Assembly: GCA_947172415.1 (NCBI GenBank)
Contig: OX359199.1
Location: 5,329,384-5,393,383, forward strand
Origin: Chondrosia reniformis
Lineage: Eukaryota; Porifera; Demospongiae; Chondrillida; Chondrillidae
Direction: 5' to 3'
Length of the DNA: 64,000 nt
The notes beneath the pieces were generated by a model. It ran no database searches and had not been told where the DNA came from. It saw only the letters and a program-made list of their open reading frames with translations. A program made the translations under genes and the position numbers. Below, piece after piece: positions 637 through 44,669 of the stretch; the first letter of the stretch is position 1, and each line of letters starts with the position of its first letter.

Positions 637-3432
637 TCGTCTGTTTGTCAGGGAAAAGGCTTGTTTGCATACACATTGCTCAGTACAACGCGGAACAGTA
701 AACTGTATTGGAATGGGGTAAACCTCTCTCATTAAAGGAGTGGGAGGAGTGTCTGCTTCCAGGGACTGTTTCAGCTCAGTCAAAGTCTACCAAAGAGTCA
801 AAATACAGTTCCAAGGTTGTCATGACAACCTTGTACTACAGGTATATGCCTACTTGCTGGAGGTAGTCGCAATGATCCTCAAGAGCTTCATCGTACTGAC
901 ACAGACCAGTAATGACATCCTCAATGTTCTCATTCAGCAAGGGAGCAGAATGAAATTGGCAATACATGTCCCTCCATAATCTAAAGGAGTTAATAGAGCT
1001 CATACTGTGTCTAGTGAATGAGAAGGGTTTAATCAGAAACACACTGCAGCTCTGCTAGAAAGGATACTCACTTGAACTGTCTAATGTCAGTTGAAGGAAA
1101 TATAAATTCTGAAGAATTTGGATCATACAAAGGATCACGAAACTCGGCTTCTTTGCTATACATGTAATTCCAAATTGAACTAGTTTTCTCTGATAGTCTA
1201 CATACAAACAAATAAGTTACCTTGACAACAGTGAATATACAAACATAATTATACACACATATATATACATACTGCAGTATTTTACGTTCCCTTTCACAAT
1301 TTCCCAAAAATGTTCCGAACTGTACATTTTAATAAGAATAGAATACAGTGAAATGGACAACAGATTGTAGCAAAATTTGTGCCTTACCTGACATGAATTT
1401 ACATGTTCCTGCAGGATAAGTAGAAAATGTGTGTTAAATTGAAAGGCAGTTGGATATTGCTGTTTAATCTGCCAAACACATTCTAGAAATTGTAAAAACA
1501 CAGGAGAAACATCTTTTCCTCCATCATTAGTTGCTAAATGACCATGTCTGCCAGAAAATTTGTGCCCAAACGATAACCACTCTCGCTCAATCAAAATCTA
1601 CATACCAAATATGGAAACTGAGGCATGCAAGCAATAGCTATGTAAGACAGTTCAGCCTACCATAAAGCCGTGTAGAGTTCTATAGTAAGGGTCAACTATA
1701 AGCTCTGCAATAGAGCAGGTCTGTGAGGTTCTATCCCAGCCATCAGAACAGTGCACAATGACACTTTTACCTTCAATAACCAGAGCCTAGGTTTGAAGAA
1801 AAGGCATCAGTTATATTCATTTGTTTTCCTACAGCAGTTCATACCCTGGCTAGGAAAGTTGATGCTTCAAGGATTGCTCTGATGTGCTGAAACCAGTTAG
1901 ATGACTCCAACAATGAGTAATAGGTAGACATCTTCTTGCTCTCTGCAGCTGGAGGACACATGATTGTCACATGATTGTCACATGACTGTTACATGATATA
2001 ACAAAGACACTCAAGAAAGCTAACCATCAGTCAACTTTCCCAAGGATTCTCGCATGACATGAATATTGTGTATTCCAATAAAGTAAAAGTCTGCACTAGT
2101 GTAGTTGCCTTCTGCTTCAAATCCCTTCCCAGCAACCTTGTTACCCCAGGCATTGGCCTGAAGAAGACACAAGATACTAAATTAGTTGGTAACTATGGCA
2201 ACTATTCACTAACCTTTGGCCGTACATCTATTATGTAGACTTTGTCCTTGTCAGGTGTAGTCTTGCTGATGGCCATAATCATGTCCTCGTCTTCCTGGGA
2301 ACGCTTGCTCATTCCAGAGAGAGGCTGACTGCATCTACACAAGGAAGTCTAATAATGGAGGAACAGTGATATTAGTCAGTGCTGTTACACAGCCATTTTA
2401 TACATAATAGAATAAGGATTTCTTCTAACTGCATCAAATTTGTTTTTTGAATGGTTCATCTTTCAACTTTTGAGCGTTTAACGCAGTTGCATTTAATCCT
2501 TTGTCAGATGTTTTGACCCTGAGGGTCTTCTTAAGGGACAAATTAAACGCAACTGTGTCATTAGATGATCAAAAAATCAAAAGAAAAACCATTCGAAAGA
2601 CATTTTATATGTGTGTGTTCTAGTTGGGTCACATTTTCAAACTGACCCCCTTTGGTTCATAAAAGTAAGTGAGCGATGGCAGTCGCATGCGGCTTCTAAA
2701 CTTGGCACTGCCAAACACCACCTCCTCGCTACAGCTCGTTGGCAGCACTAACACTGACGGGTAGGTATCACACAACTGGTATTCCTTGTTCAGCTCAGAG
2801 AGACACCAGTGTTTGTTAGGGAGACCCATTCTAGCGAATTCGTGCTCTGGCTTAAAGAGTTTCCATCCTTTTTCCTTGCTTATTGGGTGCTTTGGAGTGT
2901 AGCGGAAAGCGTACAGAGACTCGTATTCATCTACATGCAGACAAGCTATGATATTAATTGCTTCATCTGTCTGATAAATCATCTTAACCGACTTGGCTGC
3001 ATCAGTGCCTGAACAGCTTCTAAAACATCTTGGCATAACTTCTCTTCAGAGAAAAAAATTGTAAACTTCAAAAAGTGTTTGCATATAAATTTCAAGGGTA
3101 TTCCTCGGGCCGTCACTGGTAGCTTTTCCAAACGGTGGATCAAACTATAAAGCAACTATATCACATACATTATCTATGAAATACAGTTCATAATTCTTTA
3201 GTATACTGCTATACTTACCCAAATTTCTCGCCTTCCAGACGGTTCTGTGAAAGCTACGCTGTCTTTAGTTAAATTAATGCTACCCGTCACGTCTTCATTC
3301 GGCTTGTGATCCGAATGAATTATGACGCCTAATATCTTTAAAATTTAAAATAGAAATATCAAGTCTTATGTATATTAGGGATGATAAGCTATTTTATTGA
3401 CTAACCGAGAAAGGTACTCTCTGCTCCGCCAT
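637..3432 (-). CDS. Myotubularin-related phosphoinositide 3-phosphatase, MTMR6/7/8 type
   Basis: Multi-exon gene. Family members remove the 3-phosphate from PI3P and PI(3,5)P2 on endosomal membranes. The start ATG at 3432 opens a PH-GRAM domain ([14 protein letters not shown], then [18 protein letters not shown]). An exon with [10 protein letters not shown] and [10 protein letters not shown] follows, then [17 protein letters not shown]. The catalytic CX5R motif [11 protein letters not shown] lies near 1710-1760, so the enzyme should be active. Next come [14 protein letters not shown] and [13 protein letters not shown], which resemble MTMR6 more than MTMR1/2. The acidic and coiled-coil tail begins near 1040. 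A further exon at about 637-765 encodes [18 protein letters not shown] and ends at a GTAAGG donor, so the true 3' end lies in or beyond the first 600 bases. That exon has several Cys followed by AFSLTNRR, faintly like the first half of a FYVE finger but with unusual spacing. The exon joins near 2350-2630 and 2930-2990 are unresolved. Confidence 0.88.
2440..2600. repeat. Foldback (long inverted repeat) in MTMR intron
   Basis: The left arm around 2446-2508 (GAATGGTT, then GCAGTTGCATTTAATC) is matched in reverse complement by the right arm around 2538-2597 (ATTAAACGCAACTG, then AACCATTC). The centre is the small palindrome GACCCTGAGGGTC near 2516-2528. The whole could fold into a hairpin of roughly 150 bases with imperfect arms. 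It looks like a MITE-type foldback element; no target-site duplication was established. Confidence 0.55.
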
Positions 3433-3661
3433 TGTAAATTTATTGCGCAATATATACCCGGTATCTTCTATGCGCTTCTATACGTATCTACTATATTGCC
3501 CTACCTATCTGAATATCGTATTTTCTGAATTGGCGAAAGCTGTATACGAAACATTTTAGTTTCAGTCAAAGAATAACATCATAATGTGACCATATACAAG
3601 AATAAAGTTGACTAATCAATTAATACCTAATTTAAAAGATAGTTATTAAAAGTGTATAAAG

Positions 3662-4413
3662 TTACTTTGGTAATACCAACCTTTTTCTTCCTCCAGAAAA
3701 TCGTGGCATTAAGCCAGCATGAGGAATAATATTCCATTCTAAAATTAAACTCACGTCACGGTTACCCCTACAAAGCAAATGAACTGTGAAGAGGTGTACA
3801 CACAGTATTGTGAGACGTGTGTACAAACAACCTCATTCCATATCCATCGTCAATAAACTGGTACTTAGGGCTAATTGCTTGAAACTTCAAGTCAGCCTTC
3901 TCCCCTCTCAAAATTATCTTGTCCCAAAGGACAACCTGATTCACCACCTAAGACACAGAATTAACTTTAAACATGTAACCAGCCAAATAATTACCTTATT
4001 TAATGCATGTACAAACTCACATTACGTTTAGAAGTATAATTTGCATATAAATAGACAAATAGTTCTTTGGTGTTCCAATCAAACAGACTGGAGAAGTTGG
4101 CATTAATGTCCAATGTCAAAGTCACCAAATCATTCTTCATACCCATTTGATGCACTGCATTACTATAATAGATTGATTTTATTTTATCTCACTAAATGTA
4201 CAGAAGCTAATAACAAGTGGCAATAGACTACATTGACAGAGAAATGGCTGTATTTGAAACCTACACTGTGATGTCCGGAGAAGAACCAAGTTTAATGTCT
4301 TCAATACTGCGGTCCTTGAAAACTGTACTCAGAAAGCATAATAGGGTCAAAGCAGCCAGTACAGAAAGGGCGTACGCGAAGACTGCGTTGAATCTGTTGA
4401 GTGTAGTGTTCAT
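3662..4413 (-). CDS. SPCS3: Signal peptidase complex subunit 3 (SPC22/23)
   Basis: Accessory subunit of the ER signal peptidase complex, a type II membrane protein with a lumenal domain. The start at 4413 gives [20 protein letters not shown], matching the family N terminus with its single membrane anchor, then TVFKDRS. The in-frame ATG at 4464 was not chosen because the family starts at the MNT position. Later exons give [43 protein letters not shown] and [18 protein letters not shown]. The stop is at 3662. The exons are small with short introns. The start codon lies 114 bp from the divergent phosphomannomutase start, so the two probably share a promoter. Confidence 0.93.
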
Positions 4414-4527
4414 CTGCACCAGTGGGTTTTTTCGGATCTGGGGAAACCCCCGACCACAAGCCATGCTTCACAACAAGTTTATAAGTGTACTTTGACCTTC
4501 GCTGTGTACAAAGGTGGAAAGGACGAA

Positions 4528-5985
4528 ATGGCGAAAAGGAATGTTTTGTGCTTGTTTGACGTGGACGGGACCCTGACGCCGTCGCGACTGGTGAGTCGAA
4601 ATAAGCAGTATTGTACGTAATGCGCAGTCGCTTGATTTATTTCGAGTGGCTGTTGATACAAGTTTGTTACTGCTTCCGCTTTTCCAATTGCTATTCCTGC
4701 CGAGAGCCCCTTTCTCTACATCCAGACCTAAATGTTCTTAGGACAAGACTCTTGACTACTAACATCCTCACTCATATACTGTACTGTAATGCTGGAAGAC
4801 GTTCCCTATTTCAGGTTATAAGTCCAGAGATGAAAACGTTCTTGCAAAAGCTAAAGGAGAAGGTTGTGGTGGGTATAGTTGGCGGGTCGGATCTACCAAA
4901 GATGCAAGAACAGATGGGAGGAGATGATGGTAAGTGCCCGTGCAATGTGAATGTTCTAACCACCAAACAAATATTACATGCATTATTCTGTGAGCCTCTT
5001 CATAGAGGGTCATAGGAATCTATGGAATAACGCATGAAGACATAGAATATACATACCATTCAAAAGCCATTTCCTCTCTCTATGTTAACACTTAATTCTA
5101 AACATATTAGTTTGTATAGTAATCGTATTCCAATCTAATTTAAGAGGTCAACTTCTCCCAATTTAGTGACCAAGCTGTACGATTATGTCTTCAGCCAAAA
5201 CGGTCTTGTCGCCTTCAAAGACTCTGCTCTCATTGGAAAGATGAGCATAAAGAAGAACATGGGAGAAGAGAACATTAAGACCTTTGTCAACTATGTCCTT
5301 CGCTATATTGCAGACTTGGACATTCCCAAGAAAAGAGGCACCTTTATAGAATTCAGGGAGGGTCTCATTAATGTGTGTCCTGTGGGTAGGAACTGTAGCC
5401 AGGAAGAGAGGGAGGAATTTTTCGCTTATGACAAGGTATACTTTACTAGTTATGACTCTGAAAGTGCTCATGTAATTACAGATTTCTGTCAAGTTTACAG
5501 TATTAACATTGTTTTTTTGTATCCATTGACAGGAACACGGTGTTAGGGTAAAGATGGTGGAAGACTTTAAGAAACAGTTTGTAAACATGAATCTGAGATA
5601 TGTGATTGGTATGGCTCTGCTAAGACTTGCATGTGACTTGCATGTGACTTCCATGTGACTTCATGAGACAATTTAAATGAAAAATTCCCTACCTTTCAGG
5701 TGGTCAAATCAGCATTGATGTCTTCCCAGAAGGATGGGATAAAACATTTTGCCTTTCCCTGGTAGACCTCACTCAGTTCAAGCAGATTCATTTCTTTGGT
5801 GACAAGACAGCAGAGGTGTGTAGAGTAACATGTCTTGGCTAGTAACGCTGTACTGATAGATGATTGTGGTTTTTGTATAGGGTGGCAATGATTATGAGAT
5901 ATTCTCAGATCCAAGAACAATTGGACACACTGTGACATCACCTGAAGATACTAGGAGCCAACTACAGGAGCTTTTCTTCAAATAG
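4528..5985 (+). CDS. Phosphomannomutase (PMM1/PMM2 family)
   Basis: Converts mannose-6-phosphate to mannose-1-phosphate for GDP-mannose and N-glycan synthesis in the cytosol. This is a HAD-superfamily enzyme; the N terminus [14 protein letters not shown] carries the nucleophile DxDGT motif. Other conserved blocks are [83 protein letters not shown] and [17 protein letters not shown]. The stop is at 5985, for about 250 residues, normal for the family. Exons are separated by short GT-AG introns; the first exon ends soon after the DxDGT motif. I cannot tell PMM1 from PMM2, and a non-vertebrate animal would be expected to have one ancestral gene. Confidence 0.95.
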
Positions 5986-14030: not shown

Positions 14031-15445
14031 CTACTGCTGCTTTGTCTGTCGATAGTGAAGGTGTTCGTCAGTGTCTTGATATTTCTGGGCCATCCCAGAT
14101 GACTGAGTCAGGTCTTGATACAAAGATGGATCAGTTGGTACTTTGGGCGCACTTGTGCTTGGGGAAACAAGTATCTCCTCAGTTGCTTCATCCATATCTT
14201 CATCTATCAGTACATATTGTTCGTCTGCATCATAACCCTCCATCCCCTGGGGGGGTGGGGCAGGGTTGGGTTCCCCAGCAGTTTGTTGACTGTTTCTTCG
14301 TATGGCTTCCCCAATGACCTCTTGACCCTAAATAGCATTTTTGGTTTGACCAATCTGAAAGTGGAGTCTGAAGAATTCTTTACTCACTTTCATTGCACCT
14401 GTCACCACAGTTTGTGCTGCCAAATTTATGCCTTCCCTACCAGCCCTCCGCAATAATTTTAATCCAATATTACCCAGTTGCTCTAATAGTTGATCAATTT
14501 TCTGCAAGGAGAGAGGGTGACCAATAAATAATTGGCTAATGTCAGACTTCTCACTCCTCCTCTCATAGACTTACAGCCTCGTGTTTCTTAATATACGGAT
14601 GTATCCATTTTCTGTACAAGTAGTTTGATCCCTATAGATACATGGATGGGAGCTGAGTGGAACTGACGTACGTATGTTCTAGTAGAGTACTTTACTACAC
14701 AACATATATACACATATGACTATATCTTACCCGTGTCATAGGGAGAACTAGCCATAGTATTATGACAATCTTCAATTCATAGTAGAAAGGCATCCTAGAA
14801 AATAAAAGATATCCGTTACCATGGCAACAGGTGGTTTAGATAACTCACCAGGAGATGAAGAGATCAGTGACATTTTCAAGGTTTAAATATAAAGCAAAGG
14901 TGATCCAGTACATCATCCACTTGACATACTGGCGTACATTCTTGGTTCGTATGGCTTTGAAGGAAGAATACGCAGGATATAGAGTGCCTATAACAAGACT
15001 GTAGTAGAGAGGATATAGAGTGCCTATAACAAGACTGTAGTAGAGAGGATATAGAGTGCCTATAACAAGACTGTAGTAGAGAGGATATAGAGTGCCTATA
15101 ACAAGACTGTAGTAGAGAGGATATAGAGTGCCTATAACAAGACTGTAGTAGAGAGGATATAGAGTGCGCCTATAAATGTGACAAGTAGAGAAATTACAGG
15201 ATGGAAATAACAAAAAATGACAGATAATAATTTATAAATCATTTTACAAGTCTAATTAAGGATATACTAACGTGTATACAAGCAATGCAAAACGGTTCCA
15301 GAAGACATATAAGCGTGACGTTAGTAGACGAACGTACAATGTTCTAAAATGCACTGAAGATATTAATTATCACATTTTAAAATGTACACAAACAACTACT
15401 TATTCAAACTCACAAAATACTTCTGCTTAAAATGTAAGACAGCAT
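14031..15445 (-). CDS. REEP1-4-type ER-shaping protein (TB2/DP1/HVA22 family)
   Basis: REEP1-4 proteins are ER hairpin proteins that bend tubular ER and contact microtubules. Exon 1 (15414-15445) gives [10 protein letters not shown] plus two bases. It joins in phase to an acceptor CTACTACAG that yields [16 protein letters not shown], matching the REEP N terminus. Then come [56 protein letters not shown], an amphipathic [16 protein letters not shown] stretch and an acidic tail ending YRQTKQQ at 14031. The second-exon acceptor sits inside a 36-bp tandem array, so up to five acceptors can each be used in frame. This would add 12-residue blocks of [12 protein letters not shown] to the first membrane hairpin. 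The start is 274 bp from the divergent SMC3 start. Confidence 0.9.
14975..15170 (-). repeat. 36-bp tandem array containing the REEP splice acceptor
   Basis: Five near-perfect 36-bp units (14975-15154) plus a diverged partial sixth. On the coding strand each unit holds TATCCTCTCTACTACAG and then TCTTGTTATAGGCACTC, that is a pyrimidine tract, an AG acceptor and the first exon bases. AG dinucleotides fall at 14999-15000 and every 36 bp upstream (15036, 15072, 15108, 15144). All units are open in the REEP frame. Confidence 0.93.
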
Positions 15446-15719: not shown

Positions 15720-22619
<6,900 letters not shown>

Positions 22620-43149: not shown

Positions 43150-44669
43150 TTATAGAATTCTTAACCGAGACAAGAAGACGTACAAGCACACAAGTCCAAA
43201 TAACACTAGTCCCAGTACAATAAGAATGTTGTCACAAAAAACTCTTCTTCCATATTTGGTTATGAGGGTGCTACCAATGCTAATCAACCCTCCAATCTCA
43301 CTCATTCCTCGATCCACTTGAGTTATCTGATTGGAGGAGTTAGCTACACAATGGAGGGTCAAAAAATGTTATTGTTGTTATCACATGACCATCACATGAC
43401 TTCTCACCCAATACTTCAACTGTCTCGTAGCTTCTGTGTACCTGTGTGTTCAACATCTCCCTTAGTTCCTGAAGATTTTCGGTGGTTGATGTGACTCGTT
43501 GTCTCAGTGTCTCTTTGGTTTGTCTACAAACAAAACAGCCGCTCAGAAGGTATCTCAGGCAGAAAGGTCACCTAGACTGACCTCCCCACAAGTCCATCCA
43601 TATTGCCCGTGAGAAGTTCTTCTCTAATACTCCTCTCTATTGCTTGCTTGCAGGCCAGATTGGCCTGCCTAATTAATTGGTGTAGTTCTGACATCTGTGA
43701 GTTGTGGTATTCTGCCATGTTGCTGTACTTGGTACGATCATCACTGCCAGTCTCCAAAATTGACATCCTTTCACACAACTATATGTAGCAGACTTAGATA
43801 CAGCTCATGGGTATGTAATAACACAACTATATGCAGCAGACTTAGATACAGCTCATGGGTATGTAACAACACAACTATATGCAGCAGACTTAGATACAGC
43901 TCATGGGTATGTAACAACACAACTATATGTAGCAGACTTAGATACAGCTCATGGGTATGTAACAACACAACTATATGTAGCAGACTTAGATACAGCTCAT
44001 GGGTATGTAACAACACAACTATATGCAGCAGACTTAGATACAGCTCATGGGTATGTAACAACACAACTATATGCAGCAGACTTAGATACAGCTCATGGGT
44101 ATGTAACAACACAACTATATGCAGCAGACTTAGATACAGCTCATGGGTATGTAACAACACAACTATATGCAGCAGACTTAGATACAGCTCATGGGTATGT
44201 AACAACACAACTATATGTAGCAGACTTAGATACAGCTCATGGGTATGTAACAACACAACTATATGTAGCAGACTTAGATACAGCTCATGGGTATGTAACA
44301 ACACAACTATATGCAGCAGACTTAGATACAGCTCATGGGTATGTAACAACACAACGTAGCTAATTTTGATTAATTATCATATTGATATTCAGCTGATCCA
44401 TTAAAAAGACTGCTTATATTATCTCTAAAAGAACCTTATATTGGTTCATGGATCAGTAACATATGCGTATCAAATGCATCCAGATTGTCAAGGTGTTATA
44501 GTACCTGGATTTTGGCTCTTAGTCTGTCAAAATTCAAATTTATTTCATTATTCAAATGATTGACTTCATTAGTAGTCCCAACAGATTCTTTCAGCTGTGC
44601 AGCCAAACGCGTTATCGTTAGCTCTAGTTTTACAGCATCATCATTCAACTTGTCCACCTGATTAGCCAT
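43150..44669 (-). CDS. BNIP1: Sec20/BNIP1 SNARE
   Basis: ER SNARE for Golgi-to-ER retrograde transport. Exon 1 (44505-44669) gives MANQVDKLNDDAVKLELTI and ends NLNFDRLRAKIQ. The next exon starts at 43778 with LCERMSILETGSDD and continues YHNSQMSELHQLIRQANLAC, which matches the BNIP1 block before the SNARE motif. The last exon (end 43150) has QITQVDRGMSEIGGLISIGS, TLITKYGRR and the tail anchor DNILIVLGLVLFGLVCLYVF. The intron between the first two exons is 726 bp and holds a 48-bp array whose units contain the acceptor. The start is 148 bp from the divergent NSD start. Confidence 0.9.
43774..44354 (-). repeat. 48-bp array containing the BNIP1 splice acceptor
   Basis: Twelve near-identical 48-bp units. 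On the coding strand each ends CTGCTGCATATAG followed by TTGTG. The exon-proximal unit supplies the real acceptor at 43779-43780 (TATAG, then TTGTGTGAAAGG). In the BNIP1 frame the upstream acceptors read into a TAA within the unit, so using them would introduce a stop. Confidence 0.93.

Follow-up and report, generated by a model that had tools for sequence, protein, structure and literature searches.

In the human CBS polymorphism 844ins68, the duplicated piece of DNA spans the intron 7/exon 8 acceptor. The insertion is a 68-bp duplication (PMC2630376) that creates an alternative splice site, and the mRNA produced is mostly wild type (PMC1334203). Competition among splice sites that an insertion creates can thus be settled in favour of one. 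Human minisatellites of about 30 bp in about four copies lengthen exons or introns and sometimes bring cryptic splice sites into use and yield alternative transcripts (PMC2812944). The Rlec lectins of prawns contain one to nine coding repeats of 30 or 33 bp, and alternative acceptors are used within the family (PMC7536079). Intron gain by tandem genomic duplication has also been described (PMC4974935). Minisatellites that alter exon-intron structure (PMC2812944) and duplicated or tandem acceptors are already known.

Here we describe a REEP gene of the sponge Chondrosia reniformis that carries an array of 36-bp units at the junction between intron 1 and exon 2. The array resembles each of these systems in some way. 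Like CBS 844ins68, it adds DNA with splice sites that can compete and, like NAGNAG and other tandem acceptors, its neighbouring acceptors could add or drop a few residues. As with the human minisatellites, a short-unit array may lengthen an exon or an intron. Its period is close to that of the Rlec coding repeats, whose number alters the length of the protein, and, as in intron gain, tandem duplication acts on gene structure.

The REEP gene and its 36-bp array

The window, which is the whole 64-kb stretch of DNA that was analysed, covers positions 5329384-5393383 of chromosome 11. The array-bearing gene lies on its minus strand and has six exons, with GT donors and AG acceptors at all junctions. 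The coding part of exon 1 (15414..15445) encodes 10 residues plus TT, ends in phase 2 and is followed by the donor GTGAGT. When the last acceptor of the array is used (the distal form), exon 2 occupies 14849..14998 (150 nt) and holds the start of the TB2/DP1/HVA22 domain. Exon 3 (14731..14794), exon 4 (14575..14631), exon 5 (14388..14501) and exon 6 (14031..14327, stop codon included) follow on the same strand. The distal form is 237 amino acids long and includes a C-terminal tail, the part of REEP1-4 proteins in which the sites for microtubules and 14-3-3 lie. Its first 183 residues match the full PF03134 profile (TB2_DP1_HVA22, positions 1-77) at 96.4 bits, against a curated cut-off of 27.2. 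A sequence search for a solved REEP structure gave two matches only, with E-values of 0.36 and 0.95.

We searched the genome (117,379,552 bp in 15 contigs) for the TB2/DP1/HVA22 family and found two loci, the array gene and C4:12733-13036. The exons of the C4 paralogue, read by eye, are of the REEP5/6 type. The domain begins at residue 19 of the distal form, a short N-terminus that resembles REEP1-4 as opposed to REEP5/6, whereas the N-terminus of the C4 paralogue, again read by eye, is much longer. The region between the two membrane regions is reported to be positively charged in REEP1-4 and negatively charged in REEP5/6 (PMC9437294). The array gene has a positively charged stretch of 14 residues in this region, compared with CKAIDSEEKDDDTQW in the C4 paralogue, read by eye. 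Because the other family locus reads as REEP5/6-type, the array gene is the sole REEP1-4-type locus that the family search found in this sponge.

Other features were seen close to the gene. On the minus strand, at 15450-15427, a short upstream frame that overlaps the REEP frame begins at an ATG five bases ahead of the REEP start, reads MRCCLTF and then stops. An SMC3 gene lies on the plus strand, divergent from the REEP gene; its exon at 16059 to about 16195 matches solved SMC3 chains (best E-value 5e-19). A candidate SMC3 start is found at 15720, where the frame opens with MYIKQ, as the SMC3 protein does. This start and the REEP start codon are about 275 bp apart, so the two divergent genes may share a promoter. 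A tRNA scan of the 64-kb window found none.

Tandem Repeats Finder (TRF) reports 5.4 copies of a 36-bp unit at 100% match over 14974-15167 (minus strand, 194 bp). The units stand head to tail, as in a VNTR. Five full, identical units span 15153-14974. Unit 1, the 5'-most full copy, occupies 15118..15153, with its AG at 15144-15143 and a would-be exon start at 15142. Unit 2 (15082..15117) has its AG at 15108-15107 and exon start at 15106; unit 3 (15046..15081) at 15072-15071 and 15070; unit 4 (15010..15045) at 15036-15035 and 15034; and unit 5, the last copy (14974..15009), at 15000-14999 and 14998. One unit consists of an 11-nt intron tail, CTCTACTACAG, and then 25 exon bases, so the acceptor has been multiplied together with the start of the exon. 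A first-pass annotation had described five 36-bp units, each with a pyrimidine tract, an acceptor AG and the opening bases of the exon, and this anatomy was borne out.

At the 5' edge (15154..15191) the array continues into a 14-bp exact partial copy, which may belong to a degenerate sixth unit that has two additional bases, GC. The rest of such a copy was equalled by 157 of 2000 shuffled windows and, in fixed register, by 299 of 22178 intronic 24-mers. A shuffle test that gave 0/2000 had also counted the 14 exact bases and was not fair to the question. A complete degenerate sixth copy is thus only suggestive.

With two joined units as the DNA query, the REEP locus was the only locus recovered among the best candidates scored in the genome, and we rejected the idea that the array is a dispersed repeat, since no second locus appeared among those candidates. 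Chance was rejected as well, because 5.4 copies at 100% identity lie far beyond it. The perfect identity of the copies is also what an assembly artefact might produce, with copy number inflated or collapsed, but a 194-bp array is far shorter than a HiFi read and we find this explanation scarcely credible. The assembly was made from 10.31 Gb of HiFi data in 0.80 million reads, at about 70x and QV 69.8, and the alternate haplotype is available as GCA_947172445.1 (PMC12181767).

Reading frames and choice of acceptor

Exon 1, which ends at 15414, joins the exon starts at 15142, 15106, 15070, 15034 and 14998 in phase and without a stop, exactly as had been claimed. There is also a sixth in-frame acceptor that the first reading overlooked. 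It lies upstream of the array on the minus strand, at 15170..15171 (cacatttatAG/GCGC, where the slash marks the junction), and is in frame because the partial copy there has the extra GC. Use of this edge AG, with the exon starting at 15169, opens the entire array plus RTLYP. The resulting protein of 294 amino acids has 16 residues, then the 12-residue block five times, then AYSS. Thus, the entire array could be ordinary, constitutive coding sequence. The six acceptors give proteins of 237, 249, 261, 273, 285 and 294 amino acids with one common stop.

Each unit contains a second AG, TTGTTATAG/GC, which had also been overlooked. It lies 11 nt downstream of the first, and the exon starts that it would give (15131, 15095, 15059, 15023 and 14987) are out of frame and run into a stop. 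It is conceivable that the array damages the gene in this way, by mis-splicing or as a non-functional insert, in a decaying allele or gene, as every unit adds an out-of-frame AG. However, none of the six exons or their splice dinucleotides is disrupted, the frame is open as far as the stop in exon 6, and the gene is the sole REEP1-4-type locus found. We regard damage as highly improbable.

All copies share one frame because the period of 36 is divisible by three. When the 11-nt tails of 91 real introns were swapped into the array, 80 of the 91 kept the frame open. Because identical copies share their frame and most tails stay open, the open frame is not independent evidence of function. We therefore rejected the in-frame copies as a sign of selection; at a period of 36 the frame is nearly automatic.

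Which acceptor is ancestral can be approached from the human gene. Exon 1 of human REEP1 ends at c.32. The exon assignments of human variants in PMC2492855 bracket that end. They assign c.60 to exon 2, which ends at c.105, c.164 to exon 3, c.183 to exon 4, c.320-347 to exon 5 and c.419 to exon 6. These assignments put human junctions before c.60, after c.105, between c.164 and c.183, between c.184 and c.320, and between c.347 and c.419. In the distal form of the sponge gene the junctions fall after c.32, c.182, c.246, c.303 and c.417. Thus, without any array block, four of the five sponge junctions fit the human brackets (c.32, c.182, one of c.246 and c.303, and c.417). The sponge gene has no counterpart of the human junction that follows c.105, and it has one additional junction between c.184 and c.320. 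Exon structure partly favours the last acceptor, at 14998, and the unit 5 junction is the probable ancestral junction, given this partial fit to the exon map in PMC2492855. The fit matters for deciding which of the end acceptors came first but does not discriminate among the explanations.

To score the acceptors, we used introns inferred from exon matches to dynein (PF08393) and myosin (PF00063). There were 108, of which 91 were kept; 17 were dropped for a weak donor, a length mismatch, a duplicate end or short length. The sample is biased, as it covers dynein and myosin genes only and tends to miss introns whose exon grew by an array. TAG/G is found at 35 of the 91 acceptors and CAG/T at only four. 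The edge AG at 15170 scores 7.88, the 70th percentile of the 91 real acceptors and the top score among the intron 1 AGs scored. Each array CAG/T scores 6.84 (41st percentile), and the six in-frame AGs thus lie between the 41st and 70th percentiles, as alternative tandem acceptors should. The out-of-frame AG of each unit is nearly as strong as the in-frame AG, at 6.38 (37th percentile). These array scores come from the copy at either end, and the choice model described below took in every copy. An earlier matrix from 47 introns had separated 15170 from the array more widely (8.12 vs 5.18), and with 91 introns the gap narrows. In 51 introns another AG lies 13-40 nt upstream of the one used, and this upstream AG equals or exceeds the score of the used site in only two, a count that leans towards used sites because the matrix was trained on them.

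A conditional-choice model built on the 91 introns gave a weight of 0.13 to 15170, 0.07-0.13 to the middle copies and 0.14 to the last copy. The five out-of-frame sites received 0.05-0.08 each, and the six in-frame sites 0.66 in total. The model was right in 61 of 91 introns, and the best score alone was also right in 61. A rule that takes the first good AG was right in 45, and the coefficient for preceding good AGs was +0.09, so there was no preference for the first. Choice of the acceptor by score was rejected, as the gap shrank with 91 introns and the choice model is near-even. The acceptor in use cannot be picked from sequence alone.

These weights leave room for several of the six in-frame acceptors to be used at similar rates, whether or not the products are functional. 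Such use would give zero to four extra 12-residue blocks, as the first-pass annotation had proposed, or 57 extra residues via the edge acceptor. Five identical acceptors and one that scores higher stand within 172 nt, all in frame; the choice model weights all sites similarly; and each of the six predicted proteins is open to the same stop. Conversely, about one-third of the model weight falls on the five out-of-frame AGs, so promiscuous use would waste many transcripts. In addition, no YTNAY-like branch-point motif was found inside the array, although this genome shows no clear excess of the motif near its acceptors (89 vs 75 expected). Similar use of several acceptors is possible, and we would give it rather less than an even chance.

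The explanation that we favour, with somewhat better than even confidence, is that the array is a splice-junction minisatellite, tolerated because it is neutral to the reading frame, and that most transcripts use one end acceptor. We propose that the minisatellite grew by tandem duplication from the intron 1/exon 2 junction of the REEP gene, presumably through slippage or unequal exchange, and that this expansion would have multiplied the acceptor and the exon start together. The array would be tolerated because 36 is divisible by three and the intron tail has no in-frame stop. Splicing would then occur mostly at one end, either at the AG at 15170, in which case the array is coding and the protein has 294 residues, or at 14998, in which case the array is removed with the intron and the protein has 237. 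The middle acceptors would give minor in-frame isoforms. We infer the dominance of an end acceptor; the weights of the choice model are themselves nearly even.

Repeat arrays and splice junctions in the genome

We took a census of arrays with a period of at least 12 and at least 2.8 copies in the window and the further loci L008-L043, 214,536 bp altogether. There were 51 arrays, and the period was divisible by three in 29 (binomial p = 0.0005). Among arrays wholly inside inferred introns, where the reading frame should not matter, the period was divisible by three in nine of 16. By our own reading of the table, an acceptor that scores at least 6 on the open-frame strand is found in four of the 51 arrays (L011, L019 and two in the window, one of them the REEP array). 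A unit with a decent acceptor on the open-frame strand is thus less special than the array itself.

Arrays with a period of at least 10 and at least 2.5 copies make up 15.3% of the bases in the 108 introns. None of the 108 acceptors and one of the 108 donors lie inside arrays, compared with 16.6 expected at random, in a sample that tends to miss array-grown exons. In 106 distinct introns, the donor junction was multiplied in one and the acceptor junction in one, while random 24-mers from intron interiors were repeated at 14.5 per 106. The multiplied acceptor is probably a wrong call on a GT-microsatellite. Splice-junction arrays are rare within this intron sample of a repeat-rich genome.

The multiplied donor is found in a myosin-head gene (L030, G000:C5:8778000-8783600). 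There, nearly all of a 1363-nt intron at 3194-4556 on the minus strand is taken up by a 31-bp array that is built on the intron's own donor, CTCATTCAA/GTGAGT, with 43 copies of CAAGTGAG. This donor array is the mirror case of the REEP acceptor array. Its period is 31, and splicing at most of its copies would throw the reading out of frame. Together, the two arrays suggest that minisatellites can begin on splice junctions and survive if they are frame-neutral or unused.

The window holds another array, of 12 copies of a 48-bp unit at 43773-44355. By eye, this unit contains the acceptor-like ATATGCAG and the donor-like GGGTATGT; no AG in it scores 6 or more.

Five dispersed short matches cover the same stretch of the dynein DHC_N2 profile (209/210-239) with near-equal scores, each in an open frame of 38 amino acids (G000:C12:2443695, C5:2195894, C1:5988937, C12:4539904 and C9:4380270), and are possibly a mobile or duplicated dynein fragment. 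Two dynein loci, L022 (C13:4036700-4041000, minus strand) and L023 (C13:3996200-3999500, plus strand), lie about 40 kb apart on opposite strands and have identical intron ends at two introns. They are perhaps a recent inverted duplication.

Membrane topology and comparison with known systems

The first-pass annotation had gone on to suggest that array length could tune the length of the first ER hairpin and membrane curvature. One part of that reading stands, namely that an in-frame acceptor has been multiplied in a genuine REEP1-4-type gene. The tuning of a hairpin has no support here, as the topology is disputed and the block is only moderately hydrophobic. A three-transmembrane model of REEP1 has been described, in which TM1 is missing and the N-terminus is shielded from a cytosolic reagent (PMC10162974), and a two-hairpin model is backed by protease data (PMC9437294).

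An isoform that includes the array would lengthen the region before the TB2_DP1_HVA22 domain. The array falls on the first hydrophobic stretch of the protein, and this position is compatible with the idea that array length, or regulated choice of acceptor, sets how long the first membrane segment is and so how the ER curves. However, the mean Kyte-Doolittle value of the 12-residue block is a moderate 1.06, and 19-residue windows across the array range from 0.57 to 1.43, in a test that discriminates poorly because no 19-residue window of the canonical form reaches 1.6 in the 101 residues tested. Moreover, oligomeric scaffolding is described as the main source of curvature, and Yop1p stays active when TM1 is absent (PMC10162974). 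We saw no evidence of a dedicated length-tuning function and consider it very unlikely.

A related possibility is a length-variable ladder of acceptors in which use of an acceptor at least two copies upstream (at least 24 extra residues) adds a membrane pass. A REEP1-type protein with three passes would then become a REEP5-type protein with four, and its N-terminus would be flipped. We give this only a slight chance of being right. If it were true, splice-junction minisatellites, of which the REEP and myosin arrays are examples, would repeatedly give rise to variation in protein length in this genome.

Identical tandem acceptors at one natural locus are a ready-made competition experiment. If the five copies are used unequally, the difference must come from position (scanning, branch-point distance or edge effects), not from the sequence of the site. 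The project on this species has a public RNA-seq run, ERR10177766, and HiFi reads, run ERR10224860, so the way in which the spliceosome chooses among identical 3' splice sites can be studied by mapping reads.

Among the papers listed, judged by titles and the starts of abstracts and drawn mostly from outside subscription journals, none described an array whose units are all copies of the acceptor of the gene itself. The passages of PMC2812944 considered here describe no such array among human minisatellites. In Rlec, the repeats are contained in exon 2 and slippage is given as the cause of their varying number, whereas the alternative acceptor of that family is in exon 5, outside the repeat (PMC7536079). 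Tandem genomic duplication as described in PMC4974935 leads to the gain of an intron; in the REEP gene an existing acceptor has been multiplied and no new intron has arisen. NAGNAG acceptors are 3 nt apart, whereas the REEP candidate acceptors are 36 nt apart and come from the growth of an array. Finally, CBS 844ins68 has one extra copy, whereas the REEP array has five identical copies with a period of 36, all in frame.
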